NCBI RefSeq assembly: GCF_000719335.1
Contig: NZ_JOGB01000053.1
Location: forward strand, 1 to 46,133
Direction of reading: 5' to 3'
From: Streptomyces sp. NRRL S-87
GTDB lineage: Bacteria > Actinomycetota > Actinomycetes > Streptomycetales > Streptomycetaceae
DNA: 46,133 nucleotides
The number at the start of each line of letters is the position of its first letter. Position 1 is the stretch's first letter. Made by a program: the position numbers and the translations under genes. This document shows positions 10,423-40,709 of the stretch, piece after piece. The notes beneath the pieces were generated by a model. The model saw only the letters and a program-made list of their open reading frames with translations, made no database searches and was not told where the DNA came from.

Positions 10423-11091
10423 TCACCCGCGCGGAGCGCCCTGCCAGCGCCACCGCGTCACGCGCTCCCGCCCGGGCAGATCGCCCCGGCCGGTCGCCCA
10501 CAGCAGGGTGGCCCAGGGGTCGGCGTCGGCCGGGGCGTCGGGGAAGAGCCGCGCCAGCACGCGGGCGCACACCGCCGCCGGGGCCCGCCAGTCGAGCCCG
10601 AGACCCAGGGCGAGGTCCTCGGCGTGCACGAACAGCTCCACGAGGCCCATGGCCGCCGAGCCCTCGGCGTCCACCGTCCCGAACACGTGGTGGGCGCGCG
10701 CCTGCGGCGTCGCCGTCCGCACCATCGCCACGTGCAGCGCGCCGCAGGCCTCGAGCACCTGCACCACGCCGGCGGGTCCGCCGTCGCGTTCGGCGAAGAC
10801 GACGTTCGCCGGCTTGCCCGGAGCGGTGCTGCGGTACACGAACGGTACGTCGGAGGCGGCGTGCGGGGCCTGCGGGCCCAACTGGGCGGCGTACGCGAAG
10901 AGGTCGTCGGCCAGGTGCTCGGCGGTCTCCCAGCAGGTCCACTCCAGGGTGCCGGCGGGCCGGTCCCAGTCCGCGGCGAGCGCGGCGGGCGCGCGGAGCA
11001 GCGCGACGACCAGCCGGACCCCCTCGGCCAGGTCGTCGGCCGTCACGGGCCCCGGAGCGGGGGGTCGCAGCGCAAGATCATGATCGGACAC
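10423..11091 (-). CDS. DinB/mycothiol-dependent maleylpyruvate isomerase-like protein
   Basis: 222 residues, helical, no membrane segment. The segments WTCWETAEHLADDLFAYAAQL and GLVELFVHAEDLALGLGLDW carry His and Asp residues at positions typical of the DinB/MDMPI-N metal-binding bundle (Exx-H and H-xx-D). Many actinobacterial members are mycothiol- or bacillithiol-linked transferases/isomerases; catalysis is not shown here. It starts with ATG at 11091. Downstream on the same strand there is no gene, as the methyltransferase converges on it. Confidence 0.75.
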   Translation of the reverse strand: MSDHDLALRPPAPGPVTADDLAEGVRLVVALLRAPAALAADWDRPAGTLEWTCWETAEHLADDLFAYAAQLGPQAPHAASDVPFVYRSTAPGKPANVVFAERDGGPAGVVQVLEACGALHVAMVRTATPQARAHHVFGTVDAEGSAAMGLVELFVHAEDLALGLGLDWRAPAAVCARVLARLFPDAPADADPWATLLWATGRGDLPGRERVTRWRWQGAPRG

Positions 11092-11220: not shown

Positions 11221-11628
11221 TCAGCTCTGACGGCGGATCAGCTCCTCCAGCGAGCCCTCCGGTACGGTCCCTTCGGGGGTGAGCTTGTCGACGGCCGCGG
11301 GGAGCGTGCGGGCCAGTTCGTCGGCGGCCTCCTCGGGGGAGACGCCCGCCTGCTGTGCCACGTGGTCGAGCGCCTGGTAGGGCAGCGCCTGCGCGACCTC
11401 GGGGCCGGTGACCTCCTGGTTGGCGCCCGTGCCGATCCACGAGTCGGCCTGTGCGCCCAACCCGCCCTCCTTCAGAGTGTCCAGCAGCGCCCCCAGCGGG
11501 TTGCTGCCCGCCCCGTGCGTACCGGCTCCGCCGAGGGAGGTGAGCAGCGCCCCCAGCAGTGCACCCCCGCCCTTGCCGCCCTGCCCGCCGAGCAGTCCGC
11601 CGAGCAGACTTCCCAGGTCGTTGCCCAT
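11221..11628 (-). CDS. YidB-like (DUF937) protein
   Basis: 135 residues. A Gly/Leu-rich start (LGSLLGGLLGGQGGKGG) leads to LGALLDTLKEGGLGAQADSWIGTGANQEVTG and then QALDHVAQQAGVSPEEAADELARTLPAAVDKLTPEG. That order of segments (GLG-xx-xSW-GxGxN followed by a helical domain and VDKLTPxG) is diagnostic of the YidB/DUF937 family, whose function is unknown. ATG at 11628. It is monocistronic as far as can be seen. Confidence 0.88.
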   Translation of the reverse strand: MGNDLGSLLGGLLGGQGGKGGGALLGALLTSLGGAGTHGAGSNPLGALLDTLKEGGLGAQADSWIGTGANQEVTGPEVAQALPYQALDHVAQQAGVSPEEAADELARTLPAAVDKLTPEGTVPEGSLEELIRRQS

Positions 11629-11755
11629 CGCCGTCGCCTTCCCTCGCGTCCTGACGTCCTGACGTCCACCCCGTTATACGAGCCGCTCCCCGCCACCCCG
11701 TCCCGGCGAGGCCCCTCGCCCCGGCGCGTTCACCCGTCAGGGCGTGGCGGGTCGG

Positions 11756-12420
11756 TCAGGCCGTCGACGCGGCCGCGGCCGTGGCGGCGACCGGCAGGGT
11801 CGGGCCCGGGGAGGCGGCCGTAGGGGGGCGGCGGAAGCCCTTGACCATCAGGTGGCCGGCCAGGGCCAGTTCCCACGCGAAGACCGGGACGGCGGCCAGG
11901 GAGCCCCACGGGGACAGCTGCGGGTAGGCCCGAACAGGACCGCGGTCGCGGAGGCGAGGATCAGCGGGCCGCCGACCAGCCCGAGGACTGCGACGGGGCG
12001 CGGGACCAGCCGCGACCGGTACATCAGCAGGGCGGCCAGCACCGTGTTGGCGCCGAGGACGAAGTTCGGTCCGAGCAGGAACGTCCAGTCGTGCACCGCC
12101 ACCAGGGCACCGCCGACCGTCCGCAGCGCGTCCGCGTCCGGACCGGCCGCCCCCGACCCGTCGCGGCGCAGCGTCACCACCGCCAGCAGGCTCACGATCC
12201 CGACGCAGATGGCGGCCGCCTCCAGCGTGCGCAGCGCCGCGTAGCCGAGCGCGAGGCCCTCGCCGTGGCGGCGGACCACGGGGAAGAGGGTGACCGCGGT
12301 GCCGACGACCGCCAGGGCGGGGCCCACCTCGAAGAGGGCGCCCAGCAGGACGGGGGCGTCCGGGCCGCGTCCGGTGACGTACTCCGCGTGCGCGAGCACC
12401 GGCTCGTACAGGGCGAGGGC
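11756..12420 (-). pseudogene. DUF4386 family membrane protein, 5'-truncated and frameshifted
   Basis: Remnant of a multi-helix DUF4386 protein. The readable part starts abruptly at ALYEPVLAHAEYV near 12420 and continues through VLLGALFEVGPALAVVGTAV, LALGYAALRTLEAA, TFLLGPNFVLGANTVLAALLMYRSRLVPR and GLVGGPLILASATAVLFG. The first helix and start are missing. Near 11930 the frame shifts: one added base in GGGCC would restore FG-x-YPQLSPWGSLAAVPVFAWELALAGHLMVKGF to a stop at 11756. Upstream in the same frame is antisense of the TetR remnant, so no start was simply overlooked. The truncation point coincides with that of the TetR remnant. Confidence 0.8.
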
Positions 12421-13099
12421 GCGGAACTGGGCGTCGTACCCATGGCGCTCTACAAGCACGTGGCCTACAAGGAGGAGCTCCTCGACGGCCCGGTCGACGC
12501 GGTGCTCGCCGAGATCGCCCCGCCGGCCGCGGAGGGGACCTGGAAGGCGGCGGTCCGGGAACGGATCCTGTCGGCCCGTCAGGTGCTGCTGCGGCACCCC
12601 TGGGCCGCCCGGGTCATCACCTCGCGCGCCGCTCCCACCCCCGGGGCGCTGGCCTACCTCGACTCCGTCATCGGCACCCTGCGCGGCGGCGCTGTCCGTG
12701 GACCTCGCCCACCACGCCATGCACGCCCTCGGCAGTCGCGTCCTGGGCTTCACGCAGGATCTGGTCCCCACCGGGGTGGGGGCGACTCCGGGCGCGGAGA
12801 CCGGTGCCGGTGCCGGTGCCGGCGGCGCGGCCGGTCCCGGCGGCGGGCTCGCCGGCGACCTCGGCGGCGGGACCGACCCCGCGGCGGCCGGGACGTCCGA
12901 ACTCGCGGCCCGGTACCCGCACATCGCCGCCGTCGTCGCCGACCGCGCCCACGACGGTGCCTCGGTGGTGGGGGCGGGCTGCGACGACCAGTTCGAGTTC
13001 GAGTTCGAGTTCGCCCTCGACCTCCTCCTGGACGGGATCGAACGCCTCCACCGCCGGGGTTGGGCCTCCGGCACCGCCGGCACCGCCGGCCGCGCCTGA
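12421..13099 (+). pseudogene. TetR family regulator, HTH lost, frameshifted
   Basis: Begins at AELGVVPMALYKHVAYKEELLDG, the last part of a TetR HTH, with the preceding helices missing. It continues VDAVLAEIAPP, the QVLLRHPWAARVITSRAAPTPGALAYLDSVIGTLR segment typical of the TetR C-terminal domain, shifts frame near 12690, and goes on LSVDLAHHAMHALGSRVLGFTQ to YPHIAAVVADRAHDGASVVG and FALDLLLDGIERL, stopping at 13099. Without the DNA-binding helices it cannot act as a normal repressor. It was presumably divergent from the DUF4386 gene and its regulator, a common pairing. Confidence 0.82.
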
Positions 13100-13182
13100 G
13101 GGGCGCGCCCCGGGCGGGTTCGGACGCCGTCTGAGTACCCGTACGGATGCGGCCCGCGGCCGGGCCGCGCCACGATGCCCGC

Positions 13183-35244: not shown

Positions 35245-37371
35245 TCAGCCCCGTGCCGCCCCGCCCCCGGCACGGCCCGTGCGGTGCACCCGGGCCAGCA
35301 TCAACACCGTGTCGTCGGTGGGGGCTTCAGGCAGGAGGCGGGCCAGGATCCGGTCGGCGGCCGCCTCCAGGCCCTCGGCCGAGCCCGCCCGCGCGCTGCC
35401 CGCCTCCTCCGAGAGCGCCCGGTGCAGCCCGGCCAGCCCGACGTCGAGGTCCCGGCCGCGGGCCTCGACCAGCCCGTCCGTGTACAGGGCGAGGACGGAC
35501 CCCTCGGGCAGCTCGACCCCGGTCGACCGGAACGGTACGCCCCCCACGCCGAGCGGCACGCCGAGCACGTCCCCGAGCGGGCGAACCGAGCCGTCCGGGT
35601 GCCGCGCGAGCGGCGGCGGATGGCCGGCGTTCCCGATGCGCGCCCGCCCCGTGTCCGGGTCGTACACGAGGTACAGGCAGGTGGCGAGCTCGATTCCGGC
35701 CTCCCGCGCGCACACGTCGAGCTCCGCGAGTACCTCCTCGGGCCGCTCGGTGTAGCGGGCGACCGCCTTGGCCGTGGTGTGCAGCCGCCCCATCGCCGCG
35801 GCGGCCGGCACGCCGTGGCCCATGACGTCCCCGACGACCAGCGCGATCCGGCCCCCGGCCAGGGACAGCACGTCGTACCAGTCGCCGCCGACCTCGGTGA
35901 CGCGGCCGCCGGGGAGGTAGCGGTGGGCGACGTCGACGTACGGGCTGGTGGCCGGTGCGCTCGGCAGCAGGGCCCGCTGCAGCGTGAGGGCGATGTCCTG
36001 GACCCGGCTGTAGAGGAGGGCGTTGTCCAGGGAGAGCGCCGCCCGGGAGGCGAGCTCGCCCGCTAGCTGCAGGTCGGCCTCGGTGAAGGCGGGCCGGGCG
36101 GTGCCGCGGCCGAACATCGTGATGCCCTGGACCGTGCCGCGGGCGACGAGCGGGGCGATCACGAGGGACGCCAGTCCGCTGTGGAGGAGCCGCCCGGCCC
36201 GCTCCTTGTGCACCACGGTACGGGCGGCGAAGTCCGCGTCCACCTGCACGGCGATCGGGCGGCCGGTGCGCAGCATGTCGTGGATGGCGGAGGCGGGCGG
36301 ATAGGTCACCGTGTCCAGTTCGGCGAGCATCTCGGGTGCGGGTGGCGGCAGTACGGTGTGCGCGGCGATGCGGCGCGTGACCAGGGGCCGCGCCGGGTCG
36401 AACGGGACCGCCTCGTCTGCCCACTGGACGAGCTCCACGACCGAGCCGTCGCAGAACTCCGGCACAACCGCCCCGACCAGCTCCCCGGCGGTCACCCGGA
36501 CGTCGAGGGTCGTGCCGATGCGCGCCGAGGCGCGGTCGAGCAGCTCGAGCCGCCGCCGCGCCGCCGCGGCCTCCACGATGGCCCGCTCGCGGTCCGTGAC
36601 GTCCAGCAGCACCCCGCCGCAGCCGCGCCGGGAGTCCCCGGCCCCGCTGAGCGGGAAGAAGCTGACCGAGCGCACCTGCTCGACGTCCCCGGCGGTGCGC
36701 ACGGCGACGAGGGCGCCGACCACCGGCGGTCCGCCGGCCGCGACCCGGCGCAGCATCCTCAGGTACGCGCCCCGGTCGTGGACCGGGGTGACCTCGTCCA
36801 CGCGCCGGCCGAAGTGCTCGGCCAGCGGTACGCCGTCCATGTCGGCCAGGGCCTGGTTGAGATGGACGTACCGCAGCTCCTCGTCGAGCATCGCCAGCCC
36901 GATGGGGCAGCTCTCGAAGAGGGAGTCGAGGAAGGACAGGTTCGTCTTGACGCGGTCGAGGTCCACCCCGTTGCTGGCCAGCACCATGACGTCGGAGCCG
37001 CCGGTGCCGGTGACGGGGAAGCCGCGGAAGCCGCAGTCGAACACCGTGCCGTCGCGGTGCAGGGCGGGCATGCGGACCCGCCAGTAGCCGAGGGTCCGGG
37101 CCCGCTCGGCGAGCAGGGCGCCGGGATCGGGCGCACCGGGGTCCGGGGTGGGGAAGAGCACGGTCGACGGGCGGCCCAGCACGTCGCGGGCGGGGTGTCC
37201 GAAGAGCTCCCGCGCGCCCGGCCCCCACGAGCAGACCCGGTCGTCTTCGTCGAGGCCGAAGACGGCGACCGCGACCTGTTCCAGCAGCGAGCCCGCCTCG
37301 GACCGGATCGGGCTGCTCCACGACCGCTCCGCTCCCGCGGCAGGTTCCTCCCCCGGCAGGCGCGATGCCAT
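35245..37371 (-). CDS. SpoIIE/RsbU-type PP2C phosphatase with PAS and GAF domains
   Basis: 708 residues. PAS 1 at about 27-130 (EQVAVAVFGLDEDDRVCSWGPGARELFG), PAS 2 at about 145-260 (LFESCPIGLAMLDEELRYVHLNQALADMDG), GAF at about 270-450 (DRASARIGTTLDVRVTAGEL to RAALSLDNALLYSR), and the SpoIIE catalytic domain at about 470-695 with EVGGDWYDVL, VVGDVMGHG, GNAGHPPP, LYTDGLVEARG and PTDDTVLMLARV, all the metal-binding Asp positions. Such enzymes dephosphorylate anti-anti-sigma factors in response to PAS/GAF signals. No HATPase kinase domain and no STAS partner are in the window. ATG at 37371 with GGGGGT. Confidence 0.92.
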   Translation of the reverse strand: MASRLPGEEPAAGAERSWSSPIRSEAGSLLEQVAVAVFGLDEDDRVCSWGPGARELFGHPARDVLGRPSTVLFPTPDPGAPDPGALLAERARTLGYWRVRMPALHRDGTVFDCGFRGFPVTGTGGSDVMVLASNGVDLDRVKTNLSFLDSLFESCPIGLAMLDEELRYVHLNQALADMDGVPLAEHFGRRVDEVTPVHDRGAYLRMLRRVAAGGPPVVGALVAVRTAGDVEQVRSVSFFPLSGAGDSRRGCGGVLLDVTDRERAIVEAAAARRRLELLDRASARIGTTLDVRVTAGELVGAVVPEFCDGSVVELVQWADEAVPFDPARPLVTRRIAAHTVLPPPAPEMLAELDTVTYPPASAIHDMLRTGRPIAVQVDADFAARTVVHKERAGRLLHSGLASLVIAPLVARGTVQGITMFGRGTARPAFTEADLQLAGELASRAALSLDNALLYSRVQDIALTLQRALLPSAPATSPYVDVAHRYLPGGRVTEVGGDWYDVLSLAGGRIALVVGDVMGHGVPAAAAMGRLHTTAKAVARYTERPEEVLAELDVCAREAGIELATCLYLVYDPDTGRARIGNAGHPPPLARHPDGSVRPLGDVLGVPLGVGGVPFRSTGVELPEGSVLALYTDGLVEARGRDLDVGLAGLHRALSEEAGSARAGSAEGLEAAADRILARLLPEAPTDDTVLMLARVHRTGRAGGGAARG

Positions 37372-37711
37372 CGGACCCCCTTCGGGTGCGGCGCCCCGGT
37401 CGGCTCCCTCAATTCTGCGCAGCGGACGACGGGCGTGCGAACGCTGGGGCTCGGCGGTGGTCCGGCGGCCGTGCGGGCCCGGGACGGGGCGCGCACCGCA
37501 CGTCGGCGCGTGCACCGCGCGTCGGCGGGCGGGCCCTTTCGGAGGTGCTGCGCTGACTGCGCCGAAGAATTACCTGCATGAAAGAAGAGATCGGGCGAAC
37601 GGAACGATCGGGAGGTGGACCCGGCCGGGTCGAGCCCGCACCCCCCGACTACGCTCCGCCTACACCCGTCGGTAACCGGCCCTTGCCGGCCACGACCCTC
37701 CGATCTCGACG
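37372..37711. other. divergent intergenic region, phosphatase and P450
   Basis: 340 nt without a credible CDS; an ORF at 37578-37766 is Pro/Arg-rich and lacks coding character. It contains two 19-bp tandem near-copies of GCACCGCRCGTCGGCG at 37493-37530 and an A/T-richer patch GAAGAATTACCTGCATGAAAG near 37563-37583, with GATCGGG repeated downstream. The patch is the best place for promoters of either gene; no exact consensus is seen. Confidence 0.55.
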
Positions 37712-39031
37712 ATGCGAGCCCCACTCATGCTCATGTCCCTCCGCTCCTGGGCCACAACGTGGTTGACCCGCCTCCTGCTGGTGCGCCTGCGCAAGCAGGG
37801 CGGCCTCGACCTGTCCGTGCTCAGGAGGCTCCCCGACGCCGCGCTGATGCCGCTGCACCGGGACGGCCTCGATCCCGTCGCACCGCTCGGCGAGCTCCGC
37901 GACCGCGAACCGGTCAGCCGGCTGCCGATACCCGGAGCGACGGTCTGGCTGGTGTCGGGGTACGCGGAGGCGAAGCAGGTCCTGGGCGACGCGGGGGCGT
38001 TCAGCAACGACTTCCGGCACCTGGTGGGCACCGCCGCGTCGGAGGCGGACGAGAACCCCGGAGGACTCGGCTTCTGCGACCCGCCGGACCACACCCGGCT
38101 GCGCCGCCTGCTCACGCCCGAGTTCACGATGCGCCGGCTGAACCGGCTCACGCCCCGCATCCACGCCATCGTCGAGGAGCAGCTCGCCCAGCTGGAGAAG
38201 GCGGCCCAGGCCGACCCGGACGGCCGGGCCGACTTCGTCGAGCACTTCGCGATGCCCGTCCCCGCCCTCGTCATCTGCGAACTGCTCGGCATACCGTACG
38301 AGGAGCGCGACGCGTTCCAGGAGTTCTCCGTGGCCCGCTTCGACGTGGTCGGCGGCACCGCCGCCTCGTTCGGTGCCGTCGCCCAGTCCCTCGAGTACCT
38401 GCGCGGCGTCGTGGCCGCGCAGCGCCGCGACCCGGGCGACGGCCTGCTCGGCATGCTCATACGCGAGCACGGTGACGCGGTCACCGACGAGGAGCTGGCC
38501 GGACTCGCCGACGGGGTCCTGACCGGGGGCCTGGAGACCACCGCCAGCATGCTGGCCCTCGGTACGCTCATCATGCTCCAGGACCGCGAGCACTTCGACG
38601 CCCTGCAGCGGGCCGAGGACCCGGCCGCCGTCGCGGCCCCGTTCGTCGAGGAGCTGCTGCGCTACCTGACCGTGGTCCAGACCGCCTTCCCGCGCTTCGC
38701 CCGCGAGGACGTCGAGGTCGGCGGCGTACCGATCGCGAGCGGCGACATCGTGATCGTCTCGCTCAGCGCCGCGGACCGCGACCCGCGCCTCGGGGAGGAC
38801 ATGGAGGCCTTCGACCCGTCGCGCCCGCCCACCCCCTCGCACCTGGCCTTCGGCCACGGCATCCACCGGTGCATAGGCGCCGAACTCGGCAAGATGGAGC
38901 TGCGCGCCGCCTTCCCGCAGCTGGTCGCGCGCTTCCCCGGGCTGCGGCTGGCCGTGCCGTCGGCCGAGCTGGAGTTCCGAAGGCTCTCGATCGTCTACGG
39001 CGTCGACACCCTGCCCGTACACGTGGACTGA
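37712..39031 (+). CDS. cytochrome P450
   Basis: 439 residues, somewhat long for a bacterial class I P450 because of an N-terminal extension (about 1-45) rich in Leu/Arg. I-helix GGLETTAS at about 273-280 has Glu where AGxD/ETT is usual (Glu is accepted). K-helix EELLR near 313-317, and heme loop FGHGIHRCIGAEL with Cys387. It needs a ferredoxin and reductase supplied from elsewhere, as none adjoins. ATGs at 37712, 37727 and 37733 are all in frame and none has a Shine-Dalgarno, so the start is uncertain. The substrate is unknown; the sequence is CYP105/107-like by feel only. Confidence 0.9.
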   Translation: MRAPLMLMSLRSWATTWLTRLLLVRLRKQGGLDLSVLRRLPDAALMPLHRDGLDPVAPLGELRDREPVSRLPIPGATVWLVSGYAEAKQVLGDAGAFSNDFRHLVGTAASEADENPGGLGFCDPPDHTRLRRLLTPEFTMRRLNRLTPRIHAIVEEQLAQLEKAAQADPDGRADFVEHFAMPVPALVICELLGIPYEERDAFQEFSVARFDVVGGTAASFGAVAQSLEYLRGVVAAQRRDPGDGLLGMLIREHGDAVTDEELAGLADGVLTGGLETTASMLALGTLIMLQDREHFDALQRAEDPAAVAAPFVEELLRYLTVVQTAFPRFAREDVEVGGVPIASGDIVIVSLSAADRDPRLGEDMEAFDPSRPPTPSHLAFGHGIHRCIGAELGKMELRAAFPQLVARFPGLRLAVPSAELEFRRLSIVYGVDTLPVHVD

Positions 39032-39197: not shown

Positions 39198-40709
39198 TCA
39201 GAGCATCACGTGCTTGACCTGCGTGTACTCCAGCAGTCCGGCCAGGGACAGGTCGCTGCCGTACCCCGAGTGCCGCACGCCGCCGTGCGGCATCTCCGAC
39301 ACGGTCGTCCCGTGCGTGTTCACCCACACGATGCCCGTGCGCAGCGCCCGGGTGGCCCGCAGCGCGCGGTCCAGGTCCCGCGTCCACACGCTGGCCGCGA
39401 GCCCGTACCGGACCCCGTCCGCCAGCCGCAGGGCCTCCTCCTCGCTGCGGAACGGCTGCACCGTCACCACCGGGCCGAAGACCTCCTCCTGCACGATCTC
39501 GTCCTCCTGCCGCACTCCCGCGACCACCGTCGGGCGGTGGAAGAAGCCGGGCCGGTCCAGGGGCCGCCCGCCGGTGAGGACCTCCGCCCGGTCGGGCAGC
39601 CGGGCGAGCAGCCCGCGTACGGAGGCCAGTTGGGCCGCGTTGTTCAGCGGACCGAAGTCCGCCGACGCATCGCCCGGCGGGCCGGTGCGCAGTGCGGCCG
39701 CGGCCGTGGCGAAGGCCTCGGTGAACTCCTCGTACACCCGGTCGTGCACCAGCAGGCGCGCGGCCGCCGTGCAGTCCTGCCCGGCGTTGTAGAACGCGAC
39801 GGCGGCCAGTTCGGCCGCCACCGCCCGCACGTCCACGTCCTCGTGCACGATCACGGGCGCGTTCCCGCCCAGCTCCAGGTGGACGCGCTTGAGGTCGTCG
39901 GCCGCGGCCGACGCGATCTCCCGGCCCGCCCGCACGCTCCCGGTCACCGCGACCATCCGGACCGCCGGGTGGCCGACGAGCGCGCGCCCGGTGTCCCGGT
40001 CACCGCACACCACGTTCAGCACCCCGGGCGGCAGGTGCGCGGCGGCGATCCGGGCCAGGAGCACCGCGGAACCCGGCGTGGTGTCCGCGGGTTTGAGCAC
40101 CACGGTGTTCCCCGCCGCCAGGGCGGGCGCCACCTTCCACACCGCCATCATCAGAGGGTAGTTCCACGGTGTGATCTGCGCGCACACCCCGACCGGCTCC
40201 CGGCGCAGCAGCGAGGTGCGCCCGGCCGCGTACTCGGCGGCCGCCGTGCCGGGCAGGCCCCGTGCCGCCCCCGCGAAGAACCGTACGACGTCCACGACGG
40301 CAGGCAGTTCGTCGGTGCGGAACAGCAGCGGCGGCTTGCCGGTGTCCGCGACCTCCGCCGCGGTCAGCCGGCCGGCGTGCCCCTCCAGGGCGTCGGCCAG
40401 GTCCAACAGGGCCCGCTGCCGCGCGGCGGGGGTGCGCCCCGCCCACGGGCCCCCGGCCGCCTCCGCCGCCGCACAGGCGGCGGCGACGTCGGCCGGTCCC
40501 GAGCGCGGGGCCCGGCGGACCGGGCCGACGCCGGCCGGGTCGGCCAGTTCCATCCACGCCCCGGACACAGCGGGCCGGTCGACGCCGCCGATGTGGTTGG
40601 CGAGTTCGGGATCCGGTGCCGGTGCCGGTGCCGGTGCCGGTGCCGGTGCCGGTGCGGGGGCCGGCCCCGGGACCGCGCCCGGGCGGTGTCCCGCATCGAG
40701 TTCAGCCAC
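39198..40709 (-). CDS. aldehyde dehydrogenase, probably 4-aminobutyraldehyde dehydrogenase
   Basis: 503 residues. ALDH motifs: ITPWNYPLMMAVWKVAPALAAGNTVVLKPAD, TGSVRAGREI, general base Glu in LELGGNAP (about 277) and nucleophile Cys in NAGQDCTAAARLL (about 309), followed by EEVFGPVVTVQPF. Residues 10-33 are an Ala-Pro repeat coded by tandem GGTGCC units, odd for the family. GTG at 40709 overlaps the preceding amine-oxidase stop by 8 nt. Placement after an amine oxidase and polyamine uptake genes points to oxidation of 4-aminobutanal to GABA. Confidence 0.88.
   Translation of the reverse strand: MAELDAGHRPGAVPGPAPAPAPAPAPAPAPAPDPELANHIGGVDRPAVSGAWMELADPAGVGPVRRAPRSGPADVAAACAAAEAAGGPWAGRTPAARQRALLDLADALEGHAGRLTAAEVADTGKPPLLFRTDELPAVVDVVRFFAGAARGLPGTAAAEYAAGRTSLLRREPVGVCAQITPWNYPLMMAVWKVAPALAAGNTVVLKPADTTPGSAVLLARIAAAHLPPGVLNVVCGDRDTGRALVGHPAVRMVAVTGSVRAGREIASAAADDLKRVHLELGGNAPVIVHEDVDVRAVAAELAAVAFYNAGQDCTAAARLLVHDRVYEEFTEAFATAAAALRTGPPGDASADFGPLNNAAQLASVRGLLARLPDRAEVLTGGRPLDRPGFFHRPTVVAGVRQEDEIVQEEVFGPVVTVQPFRSEEEALRLADGVRYGLAASVWTRDLDRALRATRALRTGIVWVNTHGTTVSEMPHGGVRHSGYGSDLSLAGLLEYTQVKHVML
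40615..40658. repeat. GGTGCC tandem hexamer in ALDH gene
   Basis: Seven or so consecutive GGTGCC units (minus-strand codons for Ala-Pro) encode the AP-rich N-terminus of the ALDH. Slippage here changes length by two residues at a time. Confidence 0.75.

Follow-up and report, generated by a model that had tools for sequence, protein, structure and literature searches.

Remnants of a divergent TetR–DUF4386 gene pair in Streptomyces sp. NRRL S-87 and the predicted operator and promoter missing from between them

The available text of PMC3511530 describes tetR/tetA as a divergent repressor–target pair with two operators, and it reports that Streptomyces TetR-family regulators encoded less than 200 bp from a divergent neighbor, ActR included, repressed that neighbor in five of five cases tested. 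The pair considered here, a gene for a TetR-family regulator beside one for a DUF4386 membrane protein, was not encountered in that available text, and the literature searched, outside which most subscription papers fall, contained no mention of DUF4386, with or without TetR, nor of the palindromic motif described below in the spellings tried. When intact, this pair resembles tetR/tetA in that the genes for repressor and membrane protein diverge from a gap containing two palindromic sites and the regulator matches PF02909, and its gap is below 200 bp, like those of the divergent regulators in the same available text (PMC3511530). It differs from tetR/tetA in its 17-bp site, GGTGTACGNCGTACACC, in its target, DUF4386, and in being broken in the window, the 46,133-nucleotide stretch of DNA analyzed here, which is part of one contig (NZ_JOGB01000053.1) of a 255-contig, 8.15-Mb draft genome. 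Pseudogenes form in bacterial genomes by internal deletion and frameshifts, with loss of function, and the scar itself is ordinary gene decay of this kind, with no function kept; what sets it apart from ordinary pseudogene scars is that the control region and both starts were lost together. What is new is the operator predicted for an uncharacterized TetR-family regulator paired with DUF4386, with the promoter that it would cover, and the repeated loss of both; reading the missing DNA in this way yields a concrete, testable operator and promoter prediction for the unit.

The initial annotation described two divergent remnants without their 5' parts, and profile matches and tblastn bear this out: each remnant keeps its 3' part, and the two abut at about 12418–12423 in DNA of about 77% GC. 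The features are as follows.

11756 to 12417, minus strand: DUF4386 remnant, start codon and first ~26 residues missing (PF14329, E 4.7e-38)
11926 to 11932, minus strand: DUF4386 frameshift, approximate; tblastn frame change at 11929, and the coding-frame profile switches in the area
12418 to 12423, no strand: deletion junction, where DUF4386 and TetR homologies abut head to head (alignment with 19 relatives)
12421 to 13099, plus strand: TetR-family remnant, start codon and first ~42 residues missing (PF02909, E 4.4e-6)
12436 to 12462, plus strand: retained DNA-recognition helix region VPMALYKHV (orthologue alignment; homology to ActR/TetR)
12690 to 12697, plus strand: TetR frameshift, approximate; tblastn frame change at 12692–12696
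12790 to 12900, plus strand: TetR remnant linker rich in Gly/Ala, longer than its counterpart in 18 aligned orthologues

The DUF4386 remnant matches PF14329 over profile positions 18–182 of 210 with 131.7 bits, above the curated cut-off of 27.6. In the own-genome profile search the match is G000:C53:11926-12417(-), again at positions 18–182, and this search found no second DUF4386 in the window's genome. The coding sequence is incomplete, with profile positions 1–17 and the start gone; by tblastn the window matches residues 27–180 and 181–212 of the orthologue, the frame changing at residue 180/181. The first frame of the TetR remnant scores 27 bits against a cut-off of 21 for PF02909, the TetR_C_1 ligand domain. 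Residues 43–136 of an intact TetR orthologue correspond to 12418–12699 (70% identity), and residues 134–170 and 158–226 correspond to 12689–12796 (56%) and 12860–13072 (61%), both in a frame other than the first, with the change at residue 135. The two frame changes are also visible in the coding-frame profile, in agreement with the single frameshift per remnant first proposed. The N-terminal helix-turn-helix domain is incomplete, residues 1–42 being absent. The initial annotation had the TetR recognition helices removed, and this holds in part: helix 1 and the larger part of helix 2 have been lost (borders taken from TetR structures), whereas the recognition helix is still encoded. No close second TetR occurs in the genome, the next-best by E-value being 38% identical. 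At 12790–12900 and 13000–13015 the TetR remnant shows short-repeat expansion relative to 18 orthologues, in the Gly/Ala-rich linker and as one extra Phe-Glu unit.

Intact relatives were sought in 61 genomes with window DNA as the query, and in 392 genomes of the same genus (that of the window among them) with DNA, TetR and DUF4386 as queries. TetR orthologues were accepted at E <= 1.8e-85, a cut-off chosen in a gap that reaches down to 7.3e-49, and DUF4386 at E <= 1e-28; up to seven candidates per genome were scored in the TetR and DUF4386 surveys, and these E-value thresholds miss small remnants, which means that broken copies may be undercounted. A close TetR orthologue was present in 48 of the 392 genomes, and the next matches (E 7.3e-49 and weaker) were other TetR genes. 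DUF4386 was found in 40, with TetR divergent and adjacent in 35 of them. The five without a full TetR orthologue comprise two with remnants (the window's genome, G000, and G198) and three with distant DUF4386 sequences, 47–50% identical to the query (G111, G119, G266); the 13 other genomes with a TetR orthologue had no DUF4386 at E <= 1e-28. Start codons stand head to head 96–138 bp apart in 30 of 32 intact pairs; the distance is 54 bp in L146 and 77 bp in L152, two pairs with an uncertain choice of TetR start. Same-genus genomes thus show the intact divergent pair, with contiguous DNA where the window has its junction. Homologues naturally starting at the remnant residues were ruled out, the intact pairs starting upstream. 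The unit is widespread among actinobacteria: besides Streptomyces, the named loci place it in Kitasatospora, Nocardia, Micromonospora, Geodermatophilus and others; a DUF4386 relative was found in 8 of 72,556 plasmid records (best identity 61.8%). By sequence, the solved-structure relatives of the regulator include ActR, SimR and TetR class D.

Compared with G012, about 320 bp are missing from the window (323 bp from tblastn coordinates), comprising DUF4386 residues 1–26, the intergenic DNA and TetR residues 1–42. The size depends on the reference, gap length differing among relatives, and the deletion is put at about 300–325 bp. DUF4386 homology stops at 12417 and TetR homology starts at 12418–12423; in one tblastn run the TetR match reaches weakly back as far as residue 35 (12376), within DUF4386 homology, and the junction is placed at 12418–12423 because the HMM-scored search and the 19-locus alignment do not extend TetR that far. 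In that alignment the gap with its sites is present in 17 loci (among them L086, which has an insertion toward DUF4386) and deleted in L080 and L088. The best relatives of the window are 71% (DUF4386) and 74% (TetR) identical, in a search that may omit records very near the window's genome; since no close relative was found, the breakpoints are uncertain by several bases. Within 12250–12600 there is no direct repeat of at least 12 bases. A 71-base stretch across the junction is unique in the genome, its best other match being 30 bases at 93% in contig C25. This match ends at the junction and sits in an unrelated long gene, presumably for a glutamate dehydrogenase judging by its translation, in which no TetR or DUF4386 homology was found; exchange with that locus was rejected and the match taken as chance.

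At this position intact copies carry a pair of palindromes of 17 bp each, GGTGTACGNCGTACACC and in most cases GGTGTACGNCGTACACT. Of the 35 divergent pairs, 33 have one palindrome that is exact and another that deviates by no more than two mismatches; the exceptions are G095 and G130, whose centers are deleted. The second, TetR-side palindrome (of the GGTGTACGNCGTACACT type) fills the spacer of a TTGAC/TAnnnT promoter-like sequence facing DUF4386, and the other lies between this sequence and the DUF4386 start. The TTGAC–TAnnnT arrangement surrounds the TetR-side palindrome in 32 of 32 pairs (the 35 less G095, G130 and G310, whose second site falls outside the search pattern); the spacer measures 17 bp in 31 of them and 18 bp in the remaining one. 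A palindrome in the promoter spacer is the layout that would be expected of a repressor blocking that promoter, and the TetR repressor probably binds the two conserved predicted sites. The window contains no palindromic site within three mismatches and no TTGAC on either strand of 12201–12700, and its 8.15-Mb genome contains no exact site. Among the matches listed for a 15-base form of the operator in the same genome, none is exact, 6 have one mismatch and 82 have up to two, against 15 for the reversed control, an excess that could reflect codon composition. The proposal that the operator was lost together with its reader is upheld, since the lost stretch includes the two conserved palindromes as well as the probable promoter of DUF4386. 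Relocation of the missing piece to another contig was considered and rejected, the genome having no other DUF4386, no close TetR and no exact operator.

The site is closely associated with the regulator. It occurs in 54 of the 392 genomes, namely in 46 of the 48 with a TetR orthologue versus 8 of the 344 others; the Fisher p of 5e-49 for this difference is only indicative because the genomes are related. The reversed pattern is absent from all 392. The two TetR-orthologue genomes without it are G095 and G130. The eight with an exact site and no close TetR orthologue are G107, G120, G168, G204, G258, G348, G380 and G415, so another regulator may read the site. TetR genomes without this DUF4386 (L149–L151, L153–L161 and L171) carry at least one exact site in 13 of 13 loci, and in the same loci a site pair (up to one mismatch) lies past the 3' end of the TetR gene; there, TetR and its sites may control other genes. 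Among the best 80 of 267 named loci, which overlap with the same-genus genome set, 67 have a site with up to one mismatch close to the start of DUF4386; a control stretch 1.2 kb downstream has it in none of the 80. The other 13 are two with deletions (L191, L247), two with a two-mismatch site, and nine with no site, which also have no TetR match.

It is very probable that the locus is a decayed divergent two-gene unit under TetR control from which one deletion took the promoter, both sites and both starts. A single deletion, as first suggested, is the simplest reading because the intact genes stand head to head and the window misses exactly the contiguous center; the single-event claim rests on comparison with other species, and two successive deletions may have occurred instead. 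In the intact unit, a TetR-family repressor gene and a DUF4386 membrane protein gene share a common gap (mostly 96–138 bp) with the two 17-bp sites; a TetR dimer would bind both, block RNA polymerase at the DUF4386 promoter and probably at its own, and be released on meeting a ligand. In the window's lineage one deletion of about 300–325 bp would have taken away the promoter, the two sites, the start and ~26 residues of DUF4386 and ~42 TetR residues. Both genes are now dead, with starts and promoter gone and one frameshift each; the frameshifts, which the initial annotation placed after the deletion, may have come before or after it. Decay seems recent, since the codon-position ratios of the remnants, a rough measure, lie within the range of 35 orthologues (TetR 0.52 in 0.37–0.53; DUF4386 0.55 in 0.47–0.66, the two highest of which belong to the damaged G130 and G095).

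Other copies of the unit are damaged as well. G095 (L080, L191) has lost ~42–55 N-terminal residues of DUF4386, the number varying by tool, and both sites, with a full TetR frame kept; G130 (L088; S. anandii, L247) has lost both sites and ~20 TetR residues relative to G012, leaving an open frame; in G198 the last ~20 TetR residues abut DUF4386 residue ~108 at L174:3171, with no site. The breakpoints of these three and of the window are all different. Having lost the site while retaining a long TetR frame, G095 and G130 offer natural test cases for the way in which regulators of this kind are orphaned. In G310 (L086; S. hygroscopicus, L249) both sites are kept and an insertion lies near the DUF4386 start. 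By eye this insertion, near 5823 of L086 in the 5' part of DUF4386, is ~160 bp; its ends resemble inverted repeats (GGGCTGTCGTAATCCCCGG / CCGGGGATTACGGGACAGCCC), and it is possibly a small mobile element.

Four gap-and-site deletions and the G310 insertion among 37 genomes with a pair or remnant could mean that the loss is recurrent and targeted, loss of the repressor being tolerated only if the DUF4386 promoter goes too, as unrepressed DUF4386 would be harmful; natural scars of this kind would, on that view, be traces left by a costly membrane protein that has lost its signal. We regard this as unlikely. A tree built from 46 selected DUF4386 sequences places the window, G130 and G310 together in a clade (support 0.99) with the intact L212, L218, L223, L239 and G264; as support next to the window is only 0.46–0.54, their full independence is uncertain. 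G095 and G198 branch elsewhere in the tree. Four events make a small sample, and a long deletion within a 1.5-kb unit will often strike its center by chance. Lesions also occur elsewhere: in L195 (Micromonospora phytophila, 1831–2900) TetR homology ends after about residue 54, most of TetR being lost with both sites kept, and L203, L216 and L251 have DUF4386 with operator-like sites upstream and no TetR match alongside, apparently targets that retain their sites without a neighboring reader. With these four loci as counter-examples, a deletion hotspot at the center of the unit is suggestive only. The L195 TetR fragment adjoins a same-strand gene that looks by eye like a membrane transporter.

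An assembly or sequencing artefact, in which the real pair is intact and the assembler dropped ~320 bp and introduced two frameshifts, is considerably less likely still. Such errors are known in GC-rich drafts, and the 255 contigs and high GC of this one speak for it; against it stand the lack of repeats and the uniqueness of sequence at the junction, the absence of an exact operator and of another DUF4386 from the genome, and similar scars with other breakpoints in other assemblies, that of G198 on a contig of 7,623,788 bases. Three long genes in the window (35248–37344, 37685–39028 and 39201–40610) moreover keep one frame, although other frame changes on the same strand appear in the coding-frame profile, such as that at 1877–1902, which may be gene overlaps or errors. 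That the locus was rearranged and still works, the TetR remnant being made from an upstream start, is hardly credible: the recognition helix and much of the ligand domain are kept, a frame is open through the junction (ORF 12091–13134) and the codon-position ratios are ordinary, but the remnant lacks helix 1 and the greater part of helix 2, its ligand domain is split by the frameshift, there is neither promoter-like TTGAC nor operator, and recent decay explains the ratios equally well.

A YidB-like gene lies at 11221–11737, and this side of the locus matches G386 at 84% up to window position 11737 and G265 and G084 at 81%; G274 matches 10450–11049 at 79%. In 17–19 kb of each of these four genomes there was no further window match, and neither an empty nor an intact site was recovered there. 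G386 has its own TetR/DUF4386 pair elsewhere in its genome, and the pair may be an accessory insertion in the window's genome, as the G386 match stops at 11737.
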